Assembly: GCF_024228675.1 (NCBI RefSeq)
Contig: NZ_CP100462.1
Coordinates: forward strand, 186,001 to 250,000
DNA from: Salinigranum marinum
GTDB taxonomy: Archaea > Halobacteriota > Halobacteria > Halobacteriales > Haloferacaceae
Direction: 5' to 3'
DNA: 64,000 bases
The stretch's first letter is position 1, and each line of letters opens with the position of its first letter. Below, piece after piece: positions 33,889 through 56,827 of this stretch. The notes beneath the pieces are model-generated. The model was not told where the DNA came from, did not search any database, and worked only from the letters and a program-made list of their open reading frames with translations. Both the position numbers and the translations under genes were made by a program.

Positions 33889-34353
33889 ATGCGAGGAACC
33901 GAGTCGCACTCGCTACAAGGCGCTCTCGACGCCGGCGCACTCCACGACTTTCGCTCCGAATTCGAGCGCCTCGAACCCCTCGCGAGCGGATTGCTGGATG
34001 ATCCAGTAAGTCCCAGTGAACTGCGTCTCCAGCTCGACGACGGCATCGGCGGGGCGACGACTGCGACCATCACCGTCCGGTGGTCAGTACGAGACGATTA
34101 CAACGTCCACTACAGTGACAACATGGATCGGAACCTCCGATGGGACGTACATCCTCACGGGTACACCGCTCCTGATGGAGATGCCCACTACCATCCACCG
34201 CCGAACGCGTCGAACGATGACGACGATGTCGAAGCGTCCTGTATCGGGGTCACTGAACTCGTCCTCGTCGCACGTGCCGTCCATCAGTTGTGGCGAGTTG
34301 GCTATGACGCGGGGACTGTCGACCCGCTCAACGACGCAATCAATCCACCGTAG
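33889..34353 (+). CDS. Conserved haloarchaeal protein paired with the HTH gene
   Basis: 154 residues, translated right after the HTH gene. The centre has ATTATITVRWSVRDDYNVHYSDN, WDVHPHG and HYHPPPNAS, a His/Pro-rich pattern that recalls TumE/DUF6516-like candidate toxins. The end is helical (VTELVLVARAVHQLWRVGYD). The histidines and the pairing with an autoregulated HTH protein suggest a nuclease-type toxin whose antitoxin is the HTH protein. That is inference; no catalytic family was firmly recognised. Confidence 0.65.
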   Translation: MRGTESHSLQGALDAGALHDFRSEFERLEPLASGLLDDPVSPSELRLQLDDGIGGATTATITVRWSVRDDYNVHYSDNMDRNLRWDVHPHGYTAPDGDAHYHPPPNASNDDDDVEASCIGVTELVLVARAVHQLWRVGYDAGTVDPLNDAINPP

Positions 34354-47193: not shown

Positions 47194-47224
47194 TTTTTTA
47201 AAACCTGATAATAACGGCTATTAT
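47194..47224 (+). promoter_or_regulatory. Promoter and inverted repeat of the HMG-CoA reductase operon
   Basis: TTTTTTAAAACC (47194-47205) is a TATA box 23-34 bp before the ATG at 47228, giving a leaderless transcript. Immediately after it ATAATA (47208-47213) and TATTAT (47219-47224) form a 6-bp inverted repeat with a 5-bp spacer over the transcription start, a good place for a repressor. Confidence 0.6.
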
Positions 47225-47227
47225 GAT

Positions 47228-48499
47228 ATGAACTCACGTATCACTGATTTCTATAAACAGGCACCCAGTGACCGCCTGGACACGATCGTAGAGCGAACGG
47301 ATCTCTCGGCCGAAGCCCGAGATGCGCTTGCGAACGTCGGCTTATCTCTAGGGGATGCCGACAACGTCAGCGAGAACGTCGTCGGAACGATCGAGTATCC
47401 GTTGAGCGTCGCGACGAACTTCGTCATCGATGGAGAGGACACGCTCGTCCCGATGGCCATCGAGGAGACGAGTGTCGTTGCGGCTGCATCCTACGGTGCC
47501 CTGATGGCTCGTGACACGGGCGGGTTCGAGACCAGCGTCTCGGGGCCGATAATGCTCTCACAGATTCAGGCGCTGGACGTCGCTGACCCTCACGCAGCCA
47601 AGGTCAAGATTCTGAACGAGAAGGACAACCTCGTCGAACTCGCGAACGAGCAGGACCCGGTCTTGGTCGAACACGGCGGTGGCTGTGAGGATATCGACGT
47701 TCGAATCATCGATACGCCACGCGGACAGATGGTGGTCACACAACTCGTCGTCGACGTTCGCGACGCGATGGGAGGCAACGCGGTCAACACGATGGCAGAG
47801 GCTCTTGCCCCAGCGATCGAACGGCTCACCGGCGGCGATGTTTCACTTCGGATCCTCTCAAATCTCGCAGACCGCCGGCTGGCACGAGCCCGCTGCCGAC
47901 TCGACCCTGCTGTTCTGGCGTCCGATGATACCGACCTCACGGGAGAGGAGGTACGGGACCGTATCGTCGATGCTTGGGCGTTCGCCGCAGGGGACCCGTA
48001 CCGCGCAGCGACGCACAACAAGGGGATAATGAACGGTATCGATGCCGTCGCGACGGCGACGTTCAACGACTGGCGAGCGATCGAAGCGGGCGCACACGCG
48101 TACGCTGCCCAGGGCGGGTATGGGCCACTCACGAACTACGAGATCGACGACGAGGGGTTTCTCGCGTGCAGCATCGAGATACCGATGCAGGTCGGAACCA
48201 TCGGGGGAGCGACCTCACTTCACCCCACTGCCCAGGCGTCGATGGAGCTGCTTGCTGTCGACTCCGCCGATGAGCTTGCTGGGGTTATGGCGGCTGTCGG
48301 TCTAGCACAGAACTACGCTGGTCTGCGGGCGCTCGTTTCAGAGGGTATCCAGGCCGGCCATATGAGTCTCCACGCGAAGAACATCGCCATCCAGGCCGAC
48401 GTTCCACAGGCGCTCGTCGATGAGGTGGCAGCGCAGATGGTTGCTGAGGACGAAATCAGACAGGACCGAGCAGAGGAACTGGCTAGTGAGCTGAAATGA
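47228..48499 (+). CDS. Class II (degradative) HMG-CoA reductase
   Basis: 423-residue protein that aligns along its length with the NAD-dependent Pseudomonas mevalonii enzyme rather than with the biosynthetic class I form used by most haloarchaea. Catalytic Glu is in IEETSVVAAASYG, Lys in ATHNKGIMNGID, Asp in FNDWRAIEAGAHAYA and His in GHMSLHAKNIA. It would oxidise mevalonate to HMG-CoA, or run in reverse. It is followed with a 4-bp overlap by the AtuA-type gene, so both are one operon. No HMG-CoA lyase gene is present in the window, so the carbon-carbon cleavage step must be elsewhere or done differently. Confidence 0.92.
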   Translation: MNSRITDFYKQAPSDRLDTIVERTDLSAEARDALANVGLSLGDADNVSENVVGTIEYPLSVATNFVIDGEDTLVPMAIEETSVVAAASYGALMARDTGGFETSVSGPIMLSQIQALDVADPHAAKVKILNEKDNLVELANEQDPVLVEHGGGCEDIDVRIIDTPRGQMVVTQLVVDVRDAMGGNAVNTMAEALAPAIERLTGGDVSLRILSNLADRRLARARCRLDPAVLASDDTDLTGEEVRDRIVDAWAFAAGDPYRAATHNKGIMNGIDAVATATFNDWRAIEAGAHAYAAQGGYGPLTNYEIDDEGFLACSIEIPMQVGTIGGATSLHPTAQASMELLAVDSADELAGVMAAVGLAQNYAGLRALVSEGIQAGHMSLHAKNIAIQADVPQALVDEVAAQMVAEDEIRQDRAEELASELK

Positions 48500-49845
48500 G
48501 TGTCCGGATCGCGAACGGCGCGGGGTTCTGGGGCGACTACCCGGATGCGACCACTCGGCTACTCAACGCAGGAGAGTTCGACTATCTCCAACTGGAGTAC
48601 CTCGCAGAGGTCACGATGGGTGTGCTCGCCAGGATCCAGGAATCGAAGCCTGACCAGGGGTATGCGTCCGACTTCACTCGCTTCGTCGTCGAACCTCATC
48701 TCGAGGGACTGCTCGAGCGGGACGTTCAGGTGGTAACGAACGCCGGCGGAATCAACCCGGAGGGATGTGCACGGCGAATCCAAGACATCGCTACAGAACA
48801 GGGGCTCGATGTCACCATCGCGACGGTTACCGGTGACAACATCACCGACAATCTCGAGGCAATCGACTCGGCGGCATCCCTCCGAAGTATCGACACGGGG
48901 GAACCGATGGATGCAATCGCGGAGTCTGTTGTGACCGCTGTTGCGTACCTCGGTGCGTTTCCGGTCGCCGAGGCACTTTCGACGGGCGCCGATATCGTCA
49001 TCACGGGTCGAATCGTCGATCCCGCGCTCACGCTTGGCCCGCTCATCCACGAGCATGGATGGGGCCGTGAGGAGTACGACCTGCTCGCGAGCGGCATCAT
49101 CGCTGGCCATCTCATCGAGTGCGGGACTCAGGTGACCGGCGGCAATTTCCTGGGGGACTGGCACGATATCGATTTCGAGGACCTCGGCTATCCGATCGCT
49201 GAGGTCACTCGCGAGGGCGAGATTACGATCACCAAACCACCGGGGACAGGTGGCAGAGTCTCCACCGAAACCGTGAAAGAGCAACTTCTGTACGAGATCG
49301 GTGACCCAGCGGCCTACAAGACACCGGACGTGCAGGCCGACTTCACGAGTCCGACCCTCTCCCAGGTTGATACCGAGACGGTTCGCCTTTCAGGAGTGTC
49401 CGGAAACGAACGCCCGGACCGATACAAGGCGACGGTCCACTACGAAGCTGGCTACAAACTCAACGGAAAGCTCCTCTACTCGCGACCGAATGCGCTGGAG
49501 AAGGCACGCTCGGCTGCGGCGTTGCTTGAGCAGCGGATCGAGGATCAGGGCCTGGATATCGAGGCCACCAACGCGGAGTTCGTTGGTCACGACGCGACAC
49601 ACGGCCCGGCCGCTCCGGTTCGATCTGAGTACAACGAGATCCTCCTCAGGTTCGCCGCTCGCGGCCAGGACAAGCAGACCCTCCGTCGACTTGGGATGGA
49701 GTTCGCGCCGCTGTCGATGGCCGGGCCACCGAGCGTCACTGGTCTCACTGACGGGGGTCGCCCCCGGCCACAACCGATCGTCGATACGTGGCCAACGCTC
49801 ATCCCCCGTGCGGCTGTCACCCCGGAGGTGCGAGTGTATGAGTAA
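48496..49845 (+). CDS. AtuA-family protein (DUF1446, acyclic terpene utilisation)
   Basis: 449 residues matching AtuA over its length: RIANGAGFWGDYPDATTRLLNAGEFDYLQLEYLAEVTMGVLAR, VVTNAGGINPEGCARRIQ, ADIVITGRIVDPALTLGPLIHEHGWGREEYDLLASGIIAGHLIECGTQVTGGNF and GYPIAEVTREGEITITKPPGTGGRVS. In Pseudomonas, AtuA is required for citronellol/geraniol catabolism, a route with HMG-CoA-like branched intermediates, but its biochemical role is not settled. Here it is coupled to HMG-CoA reductase instead of geranyl-CoA carboxylase. The start overlaps the reductase stop by 4 bp. Confidence 0.9.
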   Translation: MSVRIANGAGFWGDYPDATTRLLNAGEFDYLQLEYLAEVTMGVLARIQESKPDQGYASDFTRFVVEPHLEGLLERDVQVVTNAGGINPEGCARRIQDIATEQGLDVTIATVTGDNITDNLEAIDSAASLRSIDTGEPMDAIAESVVTAVAYLGAFPVAEALSTGADIVITGRIVDPALTLGPLIHEHGWGREEYDLLASGIIAGHLIECGTQVTGGNFLGDWHDIDFEDLGYPIAEVTREGEITITKPPGTGGRVSTETVKEQLLYEIGDPAAYKTPDVQADFTSPTLSQVDTETVRLSGVSGNERPDRYKATVHYEAGYKLNGKLLYSRPNALEKARSAAALLEQRIEDQGLDIEATNAEFVGHDATHGPAAPVRSEYNEILLRFAARGQDKQTLRRLGMEFAPLSMAGPPSVTGLTDGGRPRPQPIVDTWPTLIPRAAVTPEVRVYE

Positions 49846-50191
49846 CTGGGAGACGCCCGTCAAGATCGGCGAGTTGGCTCACGCACGCTCGGGAGATAAG
49901 GGGAACCGCGTCAATATCGGTGTCATCAGCGAAACCGAGGATGCGTTCGAGCGCCTCGACGAACAGCTCACTGCCGATCGGGTAGCCGAGTATTTCGACG
50001 GGATCATTCACGGAGAGGTCGAGCGGTACCGGCTCGAGAACGTTCAGGCGTTCAATTTCGTCGGCACCGACGCGCTCGATGGCGGAGGACAGGTGAGTCT
50101 CAGGTACGATACGCAGGGAAAGACCTACGCTGCGCTGTTGCTGGAGTGTGAACTACCAGCAGTCAACGAAGCCAAGCGTGGTCCCAGATGA
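49838..50191 (+). CDS. AtuA-associated small protein
   Basis: 117 residues. It has KIGELAHARSGDKGNRVNIGVIS followed by the block YRLENVQAFNFVGTDALDGGGQVSLRYDTQGKTYAALLLECEL. This is the domain that accompanies AtuA, sometimes as its C-terminal extension and sometimes, as here, as a separate gene. The two very likely form a complex. Overlaps the AtuA stop by 8 bp. Confidence 0.88.
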   Translation: MSNWETPVKIGELAHARSGDKGNRVNIGVISETEDAFERLDEQLTADRVAEYFDGIIHGEVERYRLENVQAFNFVGTDALDGGGQVSLRYDTQGKTYAALLLECELPAVNEAKRGPR

Positions 50192-50658
50192 CCATGACGG
50201 ATGCATCTCCAGGCGCAAATGCGCCGCGTGAGCGGGTATGGGTGAGTAAGTGGTATCGGATTCAGCCCAGTACGTTCGAGCAGTACGAGCTGTTCTTCGA
50301 ACCGGATATGGTCTACGCGGTGTACGCCGACGAGTCGTTCAAGTCGATTCTCCTTCGTCGGGATGGACGGGGCGAAGAAGCGACCGAGATCGGAGAAGAG
50401 TACGTTGACGTCCCCAGCTCCGAACTGCTGGATAACGAGCGTAGTTTCGCCATCGAGACGAGCGGTATCGATCGGATCGAACTGCGCGACGGCTCGTTCC
50501 TGTTCAAACCTCGACTGCGTCTCGTTACCGGCTCGAGAACCTACGACTTCTATCATCCGTCGCGAACTGTTGAGACCGGCGCGCTTGCAGCAGAGCTCTC
50601 GGAACACTACTCCGATTGGATAAAAATCTCGAAGTCGGCCGCGCCGTTTAGCTTGTGA
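50188..50658 (+). CDS. Hypothetical protein at the end of the HMG-CoA reductase/AtuA operon
   Basis: 156 residues. ATGA overlap with the previous gene shows coupling, but no family was recognised. It starts with a short unstructured segment, then VWVSKWYRIQPSTFEQYELFFEPDMVYAVYADESFKSILLRR and SFLFKPRLRLVTGSRTYDFYHPSRTVETGALAAELSEHY, a beta-rich PH-like pattern. The 3' end overlaps the convergent symporter gene by 11 bp. It may be an accessory or regulatory factor of the operon. Confidence 0.75.
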   Translation: MTMTDASPGANAPRERVWVSKWYRIQPSTFEQYELFFEPDMVYAVYADESFKSILLRRDGRGEEATEIGEEYVDVPSSELLDNERSFAIETSGIDRIELRDGSFLFKPRLRLVTGSRTYDFYHPSRTVETGALAAELSEHYSDWIKISKSAAPFSL

Positions 50659-52129
50659 CGACGCGTCTGATATCCGAGGCGATATCGGTACCTGCGCTCG
50701 AGGACGTCACGTAACTCACCACGATCAACGTGATGGATGAGACGACGAGCGTGAACGCTCCGATGACGACGCTGTTGGGCAGTGAGAATCCTGCGAACTC
50801 ACCGGCGACGGCGAGTCCGAGGTTCAGGACCAACGAGACCGCAACCGCTGCAACCGCCCCTTCCTTCGAGGCCCCACTCCAGTTGAGTCCGATACCGAGG
50901 ATCGGGACGATCGCGCTGGCGAACAGCGCCCAGCCGACGACGCCGAGTAGACCGACGAGGATTTGGGCGTAGAACGCGAGCAGGAGCGACCCAACGATGA
51001 TCGACGCCGCGGCGATCCGGTGTGCCCACAGCTCCTGACGGTCCGTGGAGAACTCGTACCCGAGGCTCTCCGGGATGTCACGCGCCATGTTGGCCGCGCC
51101 GATATTGATGAAGGCGTCACTCGTACTCATGATGGCTCCGAGCGCTGCGGCGAACACGAGACCAGCAATCACGGGCGGCGTGAAGTTCGTCAGGAAGAAC
51201 GGTGCCGCTGCGTCAGGACTCCCTAGCGACGATAACGTGCCCGTCTCCACGCCTGCACGCACGCTGATGCCGATACCGAGCATCATCAGGGAGGAGGCGA
51301 AGTACGACAGCCCAGCGATGGGTGCACCCCACTTGAGGAGCTTGACGTCTCGGACCATGTACAGCTTGTGGGCCATGTGTGGCTGTCCGGAGTTGCCGAT
51401 AGTGAACAGGAAGTACCAACAGAGAACGAGCATCACCGGGAAGCTCCCGAACGCTCCTGCGAAGGTTGGATCGTTCACGGCGATATCTTGACTCATCTGG
51501 GTGAGGCCACCACCGTAGTTGAGCGTGATGGCGAACACGACGATGCTGCCGATGACCATCACGACACCCTGTATGAGGTCCGTAGTGACGCCGGCGATCA
51601 TCCCACCGCCAACCGTGTAGATGGCGATGACACCCACGGCAATTAGCAACGCAACGATCTGGCTCGTGCCGATGATCTCAGAGAGGACGAACCCCATCGC
51701 CTTCAACTGGACGGCGAGATACGAGATTACGCCGAGCAGCACCGAGACAGCGGTCAGTCCCCGTACGGCATCGCTGTTGTATCGCGCGTACGCTGCATCG
51801 GGAATTGTCAAGATCTCTCGGACCTCGGCCATCAGCCGCATCTTCTTGCCGAGGACGAACCAAGAGATGGGGAACGCAAGTGGTGCAGCGATGGCGATCC
51901 AGAGGAAGGCGTATCCTCCCTGGTAGAAGAGGCCGGGGCCACCGATGAACCCGAAGCCACTCATAATCGAGGCGAATGCCGAAAAGGCGACAGCCCAGAT
52001 GCCGAAGCGCTTTCCAGCGATGAGGAAGTCGGCTGTGCTCTTCGTTTCTCGAGTCGCCCAGACTCCGATGGCGAGCATCCCGACCAAGAAGAGTCCGACG
52101 ATGCCGACGATGATGGGATCAAGCGCCAT
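50648..52129 (-). CDS. Sodium:solute symporter family (SSS) transporter
   Basis: 493 residues with about 13 hydrophobic helices. The N-terminus has the SSS layout (VGMLAIGVWATRETKSTADFLIAGKRFGIWAVAFSAFASIMSGFGFIG), and ITLNYGGGLTQMSQ and AALGAIMSTSDAFINIGAANMARDIPES contain the Na-site/discontinuous-helix region. Family members import acetate, pantothenate, proline or other carboxylates with sodium. Convergent with, and abutting, the HMG-CoA reductase/AtuA operon, so a carboxylate such as mevalonate or an isoprenoid acid is a candidate substrate; this is inference. Confidence 0.9.
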   Translation of the reverse strand: MALDPIIVGIVGLFLVGMLAIGVWATRETKSTADFLIAGKRFGIWAVAFSAFASIMSGFGFIGGPGLFYQGGYAFLWIAIAAPLAFPISWFVLGKKMRLMAEVREILTIPDAAYARYNSDAVRGLTAVSVLLGVISYLAVQLKAMGFVLSEIIGTSQIVALLIAVGVIAIYTVGGGMIAGVTTDLIQGVVMVIGSIVVFAITLNYGGGLTQMSQDIAVNDPTFAGAFGSFPVMLVLCWYFLFTIGNSGQPHMAHKLYMVRDVKLLKWGAPIAGLSYFASSLMMLGIGISVRAGVETGTLSSLGSPDAAAPFFLTNFTPPVIAGLVFAAALGAIMSTSDAFINIGAANMARDIPESLGYEFSTDRQELWAHRIAAASIIVGSLLLAFYAQILVGLLGVVGWALFASAIVPILGIGLNWSGASKEGAVAAVAVSLVLNLGLAVAGEFAGFSLPNSVVIGAFTLVVSSITLIVVSYVTSSSAGTDIASDIRRVVTS

Positions 52130-52599
52130 CAGTCATCACCTGCAACGGACGGACTCGGCTTCCGTTCCATCTGTTCGAAGCGTTCTGCCTGTTCGTCCTT
52201 CCAAATGAAGCGATCGAATAGGTACGGATACGCCAGCATCATGAGAATCGCTGGCGGCATCCAGAGTCCGTAGACGACGATGGCTGTTGCCCGTGGGAAG
52301 CCCAGCCAGTAGACCGGATCCGTGTACGTCGGATTCTGGAAGTGGAAGAACCAGAGGGCAGCGAAGACGACGCTCAAGATGATGACGAGTCCCCCGGCGA
52401 CTTTCACGAACGGTGCCCACTCGGTGTGGTCTGCGGTCGACTGAACACCGAGCAAGAAGTAGAGACCGAAGAACGCGATAATCGTGTACGAGAAGACTAG
52501 TTGTCCCACTGTTCCACCAAGCAGCATCGCACCCACCATCACCACGAGGGTGACTAGTGCTGCCAGTACGATTCGATCACCGTTGGAAGTACCAGCCAT
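52129..52599 (-). CDS. Small membrane partner of the symporter
   Basis: 156 residues with four hydrophobic helices (LAALVTLVVMVGAMLLGG, VFSYTIIAFFGLYFLLG, VKVAGGLVIILSVVFAALWFF, AIVVYGLWMPPAILMMLAYPYLF) and a charged tail (FIWKDEQAERFEQMERK). It shares one base with the symporter start. Several SSS symporters (ActP, PanF) are preceded by small 2-4-helix proteins (DUF485, DUF997); this looks like the haloarchaeal counterpart, though sequence similarity is not evident. Confidence 0.8.
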   Translation of the reverse strand: MAGTSNGDRIVLAALVTLVVMVGAMLLGGTVGQLVFSYTIIAFFGLYFLLGVQSTADHTEWAPFVKVAGGLVIILSVVFAALWFFHFQNPTYTDPVYWLGFPRATAIVVYGLWMPPAILMMLAYPYLFDRFIWKDEQAERFEQMERKPSPSVAGDD

Positions 52600-52772: not shown

Positions 52773-53438
52773 ATGCCCTCTGGATTAGGTTCCCGTGCCC
52801 GAGAGCTATCACTACCGTACTATGAGGATGCCTTACCTGCACACGATATTTTCCATGCGAAACGAGTGCATGACGTTGCCCTCCAGCTTGCGGACCAGCA
52901 TCCCGACAGTGTTGACCGAGAAGTACTGGCTGCAGCAGCCTGGTTCCACGACATTGGTCGGCCACTGGAACGGGTCGGAGAGATTGATGACCACGACGAA
53001 TGGGCTGCGAGCGAAGCCACGGCCCTCCTTCAGACTGAGGACGTGGCGACTGATCGGCTCGCCGCAGTCAGGCACAGTCTGCGTGCACACAGCATCCGGG
53101 CGAACTCTCCCGAGCCAGTGACAATCGAGGCGAAACTGCTCTTCGATGCTGACAAACTCGACGCGGCTGGCGCTGTCGGGCTCGTTCGACTCGCCTGTAT
53201 TGTCGGTGAGCGATCGGGGCGTACCGGTGAGCAGTATGCAATTATTGATGACGCATCTACACTCGGCGGAGATCATCCTGAACTGCCAGATATTGACCTC
53301 ATCCGCGAGTGGACACGTGAACGTCTTGATTCGCTATATACTGAACCAGGACGACATCTCGGTGAGTCTCGCTGGGGGTTTATGCAGACCTTCTTCGACC
53401 AATTCGCTCACGAAACCGACGCAGGCACGGGGAACTAG
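52773..53438 (+). CDS. HD-domain metal-dependent phosphohydrolase
   Basis: 221 residues. The HD signature includes His in DIFHAKRVHDVALQLAD and HD in AAWFHDIGRPLERV, with further Asp in LFDADKLDAAGA, the pattern of small HD hydrolases acting on nucleotides. The substrate is unknown. ATG at 52773; a TTG 9 bases upstream is possible. Confidence 0.82.
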   Translation: MPSGLGSRARELSLPYYEDALPAHDIFHAKRVHDVALQLADQHPDSVDREVLAAAAWFHDIGRPLERVGEIDDHDEWAASEATALLQTEDVATDRLAAVRHSLRAHSIRANSPEPVTIEAKLLFDADKLDAAGAVGLVRLACIVGERSGRTGEQYAIIDDASTLGGDHPELPDIDLIREWTRERLDSLYTEPGRHLGESRWGFMQTFFDQFAHETDAGTGN

Positions 53439-55428: not shown

Positions 55429-56827
55429 CAGTACTTCACGAAGCCGGTTAGTTGAGACGTCTGCTTGCGGAAGGTGTGCTTAGAACCCAGCAAGCAGACA
55501 GTAGACTCCATGAGGACCAGATTCTTAACTTCCTCGTCAACACCCTTGACGAGGAAGTTTCGATCACTCTCGGTGAGAACGCTCAGATAACGTCGGAAGA
55601 GATCTGTGAGGTCCTCGTCGGCGCGTGCGCCGACGGGACCTCAATCTCGACACTTTGTGAGAATAGTGCTAACTCCCCTCGTGCCAACGCCGTCCTCTAT
55701 CATCTTCGGACGAAGTTCGAGCTGGAACAGCTCGAACGAGTCGGAAACACACTCCTCCAGCGAGATATTCTCGATGCCCTTCCCAAGCAGGTGGAGGTCG
55801 TCGCTGACCTCCACCTGCGTCCCTACTACGGTGACGAAGACGGCACAGAGGGCCTCTACCACTCGGAAGCCAAGCGTGGAACAACCGCATTCCACGCGTA
55901 CGCGACGCTGTACGCACGCGTGAAGAACAAACGCTACACGCTGGCGGTGCGCCGTCTTGTCGACGGCGACACCGCCAGCAGCGTCCTCGCCGAGTTTCTC
56001 GGTATCCTTGACGGCCTTGACCTCGGCGTCAAGGCCGTCTACCTCGATCGAGAATTCTACGACAGCAAGTGTCTCACGCTGCTGCAGGCGCACAACCACG
56101 CGTACGTCATCCCGATTATCCGGTGGGGTCAGTCGATCAAGCAAGAACTCTCCGAGGGCTGGAGTCGCGTGATTCACCACGACATGACGGCGAAACTCGA
56201 CGGTCACAGCTGGACCGTCGAGTTTCCCGTCTACATCGACTGTACCTACCAGAACGGACGATACGACGAACATGGCGTGGCGCGTCACGGCTACGCCGCT
56301 GACGCGCCGTTCATCAATTCTCCTCGCGACGCTCGATACCACTACGCGAAACGCTTCGGTATCGAGGCCAGCTACCGACTCTCCGAGCAAACGATTGCGA
56401 CGACTACGACACAGGATCCGGCGGTACGGCTGCTGTACGTCGTAGTGAGTTTGCTGTTACAGAACGTGTGGCGGTATCTGCACTGGGAGTATGTGGCGAC
56501 GCCCCGCCGAGGCGGGCGTCGCCTCTGGGAGTGGTCGTATAAGGAGTTCACCAACATGATCCGACGGGCAGCGTGGACGGCCCTCGCGACGCGTCGGGCC
56601 GTCCCCGCAAACCGACCGCCGGACGACCGGTTCGTCCGGTAACGACCGATCGAGTACGCCCCTGCGGTGAGTGGCAAGGCTGTCGCGTCGGCGGCGGATC
56701 GCCGCCGACAGCGACGATCTTCTCTTGATCTTCCGGTGACCCCCTCGTCAAGATCGATAGTGGAGTCGATTCGACACGGAACTTAAGCTTCAGAGGTGGT
56801 TAGCCGAGGAAGTTTCGTGAAGTACTG
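55429..56827 (+). mobile_element. ISH3 insertion sequence in the PEBP gene
   Basis: 1399 bp with 14-bp perfect terminal repeats, CAGTACTTCACGAA (55429-55442) and its complement (56814-56827), flanked by the 5-bp duplication AGTAT at 55424-55428 and 56828-56832. It carries a full-length transposase in the same orientation as the host gene. Confidence 0.95.
55476..56642 (+). CDS. ISH3 transposase
   Basis: 388-residue DDE transposase. Asp in VVADLHLRPYYGDEDG, Asp in VYLDREFYDSKC and Glu in KRFGIEASYRLSEQTIATTTTQDP are the likely catalytic triad. The C-terminus WEYVATPRRGGRRLWEW ... VPANRPPDDRFVR is typical of ISH3 itself. The GTG at 55476 (opening LRTQQADSRLHEDQ) was preferred over a TTG at 55452 because it matches the known N-terminus. 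Confidence 0.93.
   Translation: MLRTQQADSRLHEDQILNFLVNTLDEEVSITLGENAQITSEEICEVLVGACADGTSISTLCENSANSPRANAVLYHLRTKFELEQLERVGNTLLQRDILDALPKQVEVVADLHLRPYYGDEDGTEGLYHSEAKRGTTAFHAYATLYARVKNKRYTLAVRRLVDGDTASSVLAEFLGILDGLDLGVKAVYLDREFYDSKCLTLLQAHNHAYVIPIIRWGQSIKQELSEGWSRVIHHDMTAKLDGHSWTVEFPVYIDCTYQNGRYDEHGVARHGYAADAPFINSPRDARYHYAKRFGIEASYRLSEQTIATTTTQDPAVRLLYVVVSLLLQNVWRYLHWEYVATPRRGGRRLWEWSYKEFTNMIRRAAWTALATRRAVPANRPPDDRFVR

Follow-up and report, generated by a model that had tools for sequence, protein, structure and literature searches.

Gene content and distribution of the cassette

The window analyzed here is a stretch of 64,000 nucleotides (G000:C2:186001-250000) on a 437-kb contig of the haloarchaeon Salinigranum marinum, the assembly of which comprises 4.9 Mb. 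It contains a run of four plus-strand genes (47228-50658), which encode a class II 3-hydroxy-3-methylglutaryl-coenzyme A (HMG-CoA) reductase (HMGR), AtuA, the small protein AtuA′, and a fourth protein called gene 4 in the following. Successive genes of the run overlap by 4 to 8 bases, and the HMGR/AtuA and AtuA′/gene 4 overlaps are 4 bp each. A minus-strand gene pair (52599-50648) for a sodium:solute symporter (SSS) and a small protein with four predicted transmembrane (TM) helices converges on this run. The end of the symporter gene overlaps the end of gene 4, and the gene for the 4-TM protein overlaps the start of the symporter gene by one base (Table 1). An earlier note on this DNA had described all of these genes, including the 4-bp HMGR/AtuA overlap and the converging symporter pair, and each of them was found where the note had placed it. 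The proposed span of 47228-52599 is correct for the six genes, but its end point had to be revised, since an HD-domain hydrolase gene also belongs to the locus.

Table 1. Features of the locus, with positions in the window
Feature	Position	Strand	Evidence or remark
TATA-box-like element TTTTTTAAAA	47194..47203	+	25-34 bases upstream of the HMGR ATG, read from the sequence
Class II (degradative, NAD-type) HMG-CoA reductase, 423 aa	47228..48499	+	TIGR00532; 55% identity to 1qax
AtuA, 449 aa, proposed large subunit of an HMG-CoA-acting C-C lyase	48496..49845	+	PF07287
AtuA′, 117 aa, proposed small subunit	49838..50191	+	PF23544 (AtuA_ferredoxin)
Gene 4, 156 aa, predicted PH-like fold	50188..50658	+	kept in 12/12 cassettes
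SSS (sodium:solute) symporter, 493 aa, proposed mevalonate importer	50648..52129	-	PF00474, 164 bits
Small membrane protein, 156 aa, likely symporter partner	52129..52599	-	4 predicted TM helices
HD-domain metal-dependent hydrolase, 221 aa, accessory	52773..53438	+	PF01966, 45 bits

Twelve distinct genomes or plasmids of haloarchaea carry the same six genes as a group. Besides the window, the carriers are Halorarius litoreus (L007), Halogranum rubrum (L008 = L099), Haloplanus ruber (L009 = G080), two Halolamina (L010 and L012 = G280), an uncultured archaeon (L011), Halorubrum sp. SD626R (L013 = L104), a Halalkalicoccus plasmid (L066), and the genomes G283 (L058), G233 (L059), and G381 (L103). 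Records joined here by an equals sign were equated because their contigs have equal lengths. This grouping of six genes is not a product of chance. The 4-bp overlap between HMGR and AtuA recurs in most copies of the cassette. The side and the orientation of the symporter pair vary, but its attachment is constant: the symporter is present in 12 of the 12 cassettes, and the 4-TM protein always accompanies it. Three of the 12 copies are damaged: the two Halolamina drafts have a broken AtuA gene, and a truncated symporter is found in the metagenome-assembled genome of the uncultured archaeon. The two Halolamina AtuA genes (L010:10001-11340, L012:10001-11343) contain a frameshift or stop, which could reflect decay or a sequencing error. 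The G233 cassette contains an additional gene (L059:11167-12204) between HMGR and the symporter pair, which encodes a divergent mevalonate-kinase-like protein and occurs in addition to the regular kinase of that genome.

The earlier note had suggested that haloarchaea be searched for the co-occurrence of class II HMGR and AtuA. In a sample of 292 genomes of the class, 12 encode a degradative HMGR, nine encode AtuA, and five encode both, and in all five the two genes are adjacent, as the note's proposal implied. The hypergeometric probability of this co-occurrence, computed without a correction for phylogeny, is about 5e-6. A larger sample of 391 genomes contained 15 with AtuA, eight of which have it in the cassette. 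AtuA was not found in two genomes of the window's own genus, and the cassette is therefore accessory. The open-access literature searched yielded neither a published report of the cassette nor a relevant publication linking HMGR with AtuA.

Type and origin of the HMG-CoA reductase

The cassette HMGR scored 430.7 bits against the degradative equivalog TIGR00532, far above the cut-off of 259.95. An alignment with the Pseudomonas mevalonii HMGR (1qax) showed that the catalytic residues E83, K267, D283, and H381, as well as the NAD-selecting D146, are retained as E80, K265, D281, H378, and D143, respectively. The genome of S. marinum encodes a second HMGR, of the archaeal type (G000:C1:3951116-3952234), and each of the other four sampled cassette genomes has an archaeal-type HMGR as well. 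The class II enzyme is thus not the only HMGR of the organism, a case that the earlier note had set against its own proposal. With this separate archaeal-type enzyme, which would make the mevalonate for lipids, the cassette HMGR is not needed for biosynthesis, and a biosynthetic role was rejected on this ground. In a phylogenetic tree, the haloarchaeal class II enzymes formed one group that was separate from the bacterial ones (100/99), which is consistent with a single transfer from bacteria.

AtuA/AtuA′ and the HMG-CoA lyase slot

AtuA matched PF07287 with 472 bits, its only match in Pfam, and AtuA′ matched PF23544 with 101.7 bits. In the two bacterial homologues that were checked, AtuA is a single protein, and AtuA′ corresponds to its C-terminal domain. 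No match of AtuA was found in NCBIfam, including NF004283, the model of the canonical HMG-CoA lyase (PRK05692 family); therefore, AtuA could only be an analogue of that lyase. A profile search matched a PDB chain named citramalate lyase subunit A (CmlA, 9erq/9evf) with E=1.3e-11, and the single-sequence search gave E=5e-4. The homology extends over two regions, and GR..DPA and YE..DP motifs are common to both proteins, but the relationship is very distant, and the analysis brought to light no CoA-thioester context for CmlA. A published paper on CmlA as an AtuA-family citramalate lyase was not found in the open-access literature. The statement of the earlier note that AtuA is known only from acyclic terpene use can no longer be upheld, in view of this PDB entry and of further AtuA loci that adjoin carboxylase/hydratase or citrate-transporter genes.

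The gene neighborhoods were compared with 13 bacterial plasmid loci containing a degradative HMGR and with eight annotated AtuA loci outside the cassette. In six of the 13 bacterial loci, an HMG-CoA lyase gene lies within about 3 kb of the HMGR gene. It follows HMGR directly in Rhodococcus pseudokoreensis and shares 4 bp with the HMGR gene in Nitratireductor, as AtuA does in the window. None of the 13 loci contains AtuA, and AtuA and HMG-CoA lyase were found together in no locus examined. In most of the 13, a TRAP, tripartite tricarboxylate, or ABC transporter adjoins HMGR. A search of the PDB with the TRAP binding protein of Ruegeria returned solute-binding homologues, including the lactate-binding TTHA0766, none with a mevalonate annotation, and no relevant publications on mevalonate TRAP transport were found. 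In three bacterial loci (L080, L082, L083), tripartite tricarboxylate permeases are accompanied by a small protein without a Pfam match, which is encoded right after HMGR in a TctB-like position.

Genes for a biotin-dependent carboxylase and an enoyl-CoA hydratase lie beside AtuA in six of the eight loci outside the cassette (Natrinema, Rhodococcus gordoniae, Sulfitobacter alexandrii, Sulfitobacter pontiacus, Roseovarius, and Achromobacter), and the AtuA locus of G360 resembles them. Carboxylase and hydratase together yield 3-hydroxy-3-alkylglutaryl-CoA, the substrate class of HMG-CoA lyase (PMC4097962). In the AtuA tree, the cassette proteins form a single clade (100/100) inside a clade of mostly carboxylase-linked AtuAs (100/99). 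AtuAs encoded near a citrate symporter, or near genes for a CoA-transferase, a thiamine pyrophosphate (TPP) enzyme, and a mandelate racemase, fall outside the carboxylase-linked clade. In these neighborhoods, AtuA/AtuA′ take the position of HMG-CoA lyase next to HMGR, and their nearest relatives outside the cassette occupy a lyase slot as well. The earlier idea that AtuA/AtuA′ act at the level of HMG-CoA gains support from the bacterial loci with HMG-CoA lyase in the same slot.

Additional haloarchaeal AtuA/AtuA′ pairs were observed at L060 and L061 (G257) and at L062 and L063. The G257 genes lie near genes for a TPP enzyme, a class III CoA-transferase, a mandelate-racemase-like protein, and a TRAP transporter, and probably belong to a different acid degradation route. 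On a plasmid of Azospirillum sp. B510 (L089:4586-7660), AtuA/AtuA′ directly follow a citrate:proton symporter and are candidates for a citrate or citramalate lyase.

Proposed pathway, alternatives, and related systems

We propose that the SSS symporter and its 4-TM partner would import mevalonate, and that the class II HMGR would operate in the oxidative direction, as in P. mevalonii, converting mevalonate, CoA, and 2 NAD+ to HMG-CoA and 2 NADH. AtuA/AtuA′ would then cleave HMG-CoA, replacing the unrelated MvaB/LiuE-type HMG-CoA lyase, as is suggested by the phylogeny and the position of the genes and by the lyase slot that recurs in AtuA loci. The products could enter central metabolism via thiolase and acetyl-CoA synthetase. 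Judged from the sequences, it is likely that the cassette is a mevalonate catabolic unit with AtuA/AtuA′ as a non-orthologous HMG-CoA lyase. The mevalonate-kinase-like gene inside the L059 cassette and the AtuA-family PDB entry named for citramalate lyase also count in favor of this reading.

Two analogies, the acetate-lyase reaction assigned to AtuA and the cleavage of citramalate, suggest that the products may be acetoacetyl-CoA and acetate, and not acetoacetate and acetyl-CoA. In citramalate, the corresponding bond would be broken to give acetate and pyruvate. In the genome of S. marinum, no SCOT-type CoA transferase was found, and the two best candidates for an acetoacetate ligase obtained higher scores as acetate ligases. 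Free acetoacetate would thus have no obvious activator, and the genome fits an acetate-releasing cleavage. This chemistry is a serious possibility that falls somewhat short of probable. A wider proposal, which we put forward just as tentatively, is that AtuA/AtuA′ would be a non-homologous HMG-CoA acetate lyase, that the whole AtuA family would consist of 3-hydroxy-3-alkylglutaryl-CoA (and citramalate-like) acetate lyases, and that haloarchaea would use one of them to feed on the precursor of the lipids in their own membranes.

Several points weigh against a catabolic unit with AtuA/AtuA′ as the lyase. According to a review (PMC4097962), the demonstrated 3-hydroxy-3-isohexenylglutaryl-CoA (HIHG-CoA) lyase activity belongs to LiuE, not to AtuA, so that the chemistry of AtuA itself is putative. 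The AlphaFold2 model of AtuA, built with six close homologues, had a predicted local distance difference test (pLDDT) score of 39, so that no active-site argument is possible. The degradative label of HMGR leaves the direction of the reaction open, and a class II enzyme is the sole HMGR in the genomes G001, G007, and G162. Furthermore, HMG-CoA lyase is encoded elsewhere in two cassette genomes, Halorarius and Halogranum, and it is generally rare, being present in 28 and missing in 264 of the 292 genomes of the class. The earlier note had seen no HMG-CoA lyase in the window, and this extends to the whole genome, in which nothing scored above the curated cut-off of NF004283; three weak matches are isopropylmalate/homocitrate synthase-like proteins. 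The lyase is absent in eight of the ten cassette genomes tested, that of the window among them. Because about 90% of the class lack the lyase, its absence was downgraded from strong to weak evidence, showing only that something else must complete the route.

Mevalonate might also be degraded by the cassette while AtuA/AtuA′ act on a neighboring intermediate, e.g., on free HMG or in a later C-C cleavage, or are accessory, with an unrecognized enzyme splitting HMG-CoA. Such a role would fit four observations: citramalate lyase, after which the PDB homologue is named, acts on a free acid; the Azospirillum pair adjoins a citrate:proton symporter; half of the cassettes have an HD-domain hydrolase attached; and two cassette genomes have kept a normal HMG-CoA lyase. 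However, the cassette AtuA groups with the carboxylase/hydratase-linked AtuAs, for which a CoA-thioester substrate is expected, and not with the citrate-linked clade, and the cassette contains no other lyase candidate. We regard this explanation as unlikely.

An anabolic or salvage function, in which imported or extra mevalonate feeds the isoprenoid lipids and the reductase makes mevalonate, appears improbable. The genomes with a class II enzyme as their sole HMGR indicate that haloarchaeal class II enzymes can be biosynthetic, and the mevalonate-kinase-like gene inside one cassette points in the same direction. Yet AtuA is missing from the three sole-HMGR genomes, and their loci (L052, L053, and L057) showed no symporter pair. 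The AtuA-free genomes G001, G007, and G093, which belong to one family, nest among the cassette HMGRs in the tree; for G001 and G007, the sequences suggest that a catabolic HMGR was recruited for biosynthesis and replaced the archaeal-type enzyme. An anabolic function is further disfavored by the archaeal-type HMGR in all five sampled cassette genomes and by the retained Asp for NAD specificity, and it would leave the translational coupling of HMGR to the AtuA gene hard to explain. Least probable of all, with only a very slight chance of being correct, is the reading that another isoprenoid-derived hydroxy acid, such as a terpene acid, is the substrate and that HMGR was taken over to act on a related thioester. 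It is prompted by the name of AtuA, which derives from acyclic terpene use (PMC4847356), and the earlier note had likewise considered citronellate and isoprenoid acids. However, the active-site residues of HMGR match the mevalonate enzyme exactly, and the cassette yielded no gene for an acyl-CoA synthetase, dehydrogenase, carboxylase, or hydratase. The Atu-pathway genes for carboxylase, hydratase, and acyl-CoA dehydrogenase were also not found in the window (tblastn) or among the neighbors tested, and nothing supports citronellate or isoprenoid acids as substrates.

The AtuA (DUF1446) family is widespread, and its reaction is unsettled because LiuE was shown to perform the step expected of AtuA. 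The position of AtuA/AtuA′ beside an enzyme with HMG-CoA as its known product makes the reaction testable with two subunits and an available substrate. If mevalonate catabolism with AtuA/AtuA′ as the lyase is true, HMG-CoA cleavage would have a second evolutionary solution, the function of a large family would come into view, and archaea would catabolize mevalonate, which they must also make for their lipids.

Gene 4 matched no Pfam family. Its AlphaFold2 model (mean pLDDT 76) has a pleckstrin homology (PH)-like fold, and the top Foldseek match was the N-terminal domain of the FACT subunit SSRP1 (E=1.1e-4), a similarity that is unexpected in an archaeal metabolic operon. Gene 4 might perhaps be a scaffold or regulator. 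Homologues of the YedJ-like HD-domain hydrolase are attached to six of the 12 cassettes at differing positions, and both the PH-like and the HD-domain proteins are regarded as accessory. The spacing of the TATA-like box suggests that the HMGR transcript is leaderless, and an A/T-rich element lies at roughly the same distance upstream of HMGR in most relatives. An inverted repeat between this box and the start codon (ATAATA-N5-TATTAT, 47208-47224) was considered as an operator and dropped, as it is absent from the relatives. The cassette neighbors tested were CBS, Usp, ISH3 transposase, amino-acid permease, and HD genes. The G+C content drops from about 67% to about 58% from about position 34000 to the end of the window, and with an ISH3 transposase at 55452-56642 the cassette region looks mobile.

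Besides the distantly related citramalate lyase, two known systems are close to the cassette. The Atu pathway and the carboxylase-linked AtuA loci share the AtuA and AtuA′ domains with it, and their AtuAs belong to the same clade. In contrast, the cassette has separate genes for the two domains, no gene for a carboxylase, hydratase, acyl-CoA dehydrogenase, or synthetase lies nearby, and HMG-CoA would be supplied by HMGR. The mvaA-mvaB operon of P. mevalonii and its bacterial relatives has an orthologous degradative HMGR, a linked transporter, and a lyase slot right after HMGR. It differs in that the cassette contains an SSS symporter with a 4-TM protein, whereas the bacteria have TRAP, tricarboxylate, or ABC transporters, that PH-like and HD genes have been added, that no MocR-type regulator lies beside the cassette HMGR, and that AtuA/AtuA′ stand in place of HMG-CoA lyase. 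The cassette would thus be a variant of the known bacterial mvaA-mvaB mevalonate pathway, and the use of AtuA/AtuA′ for the lyase would be what is new.

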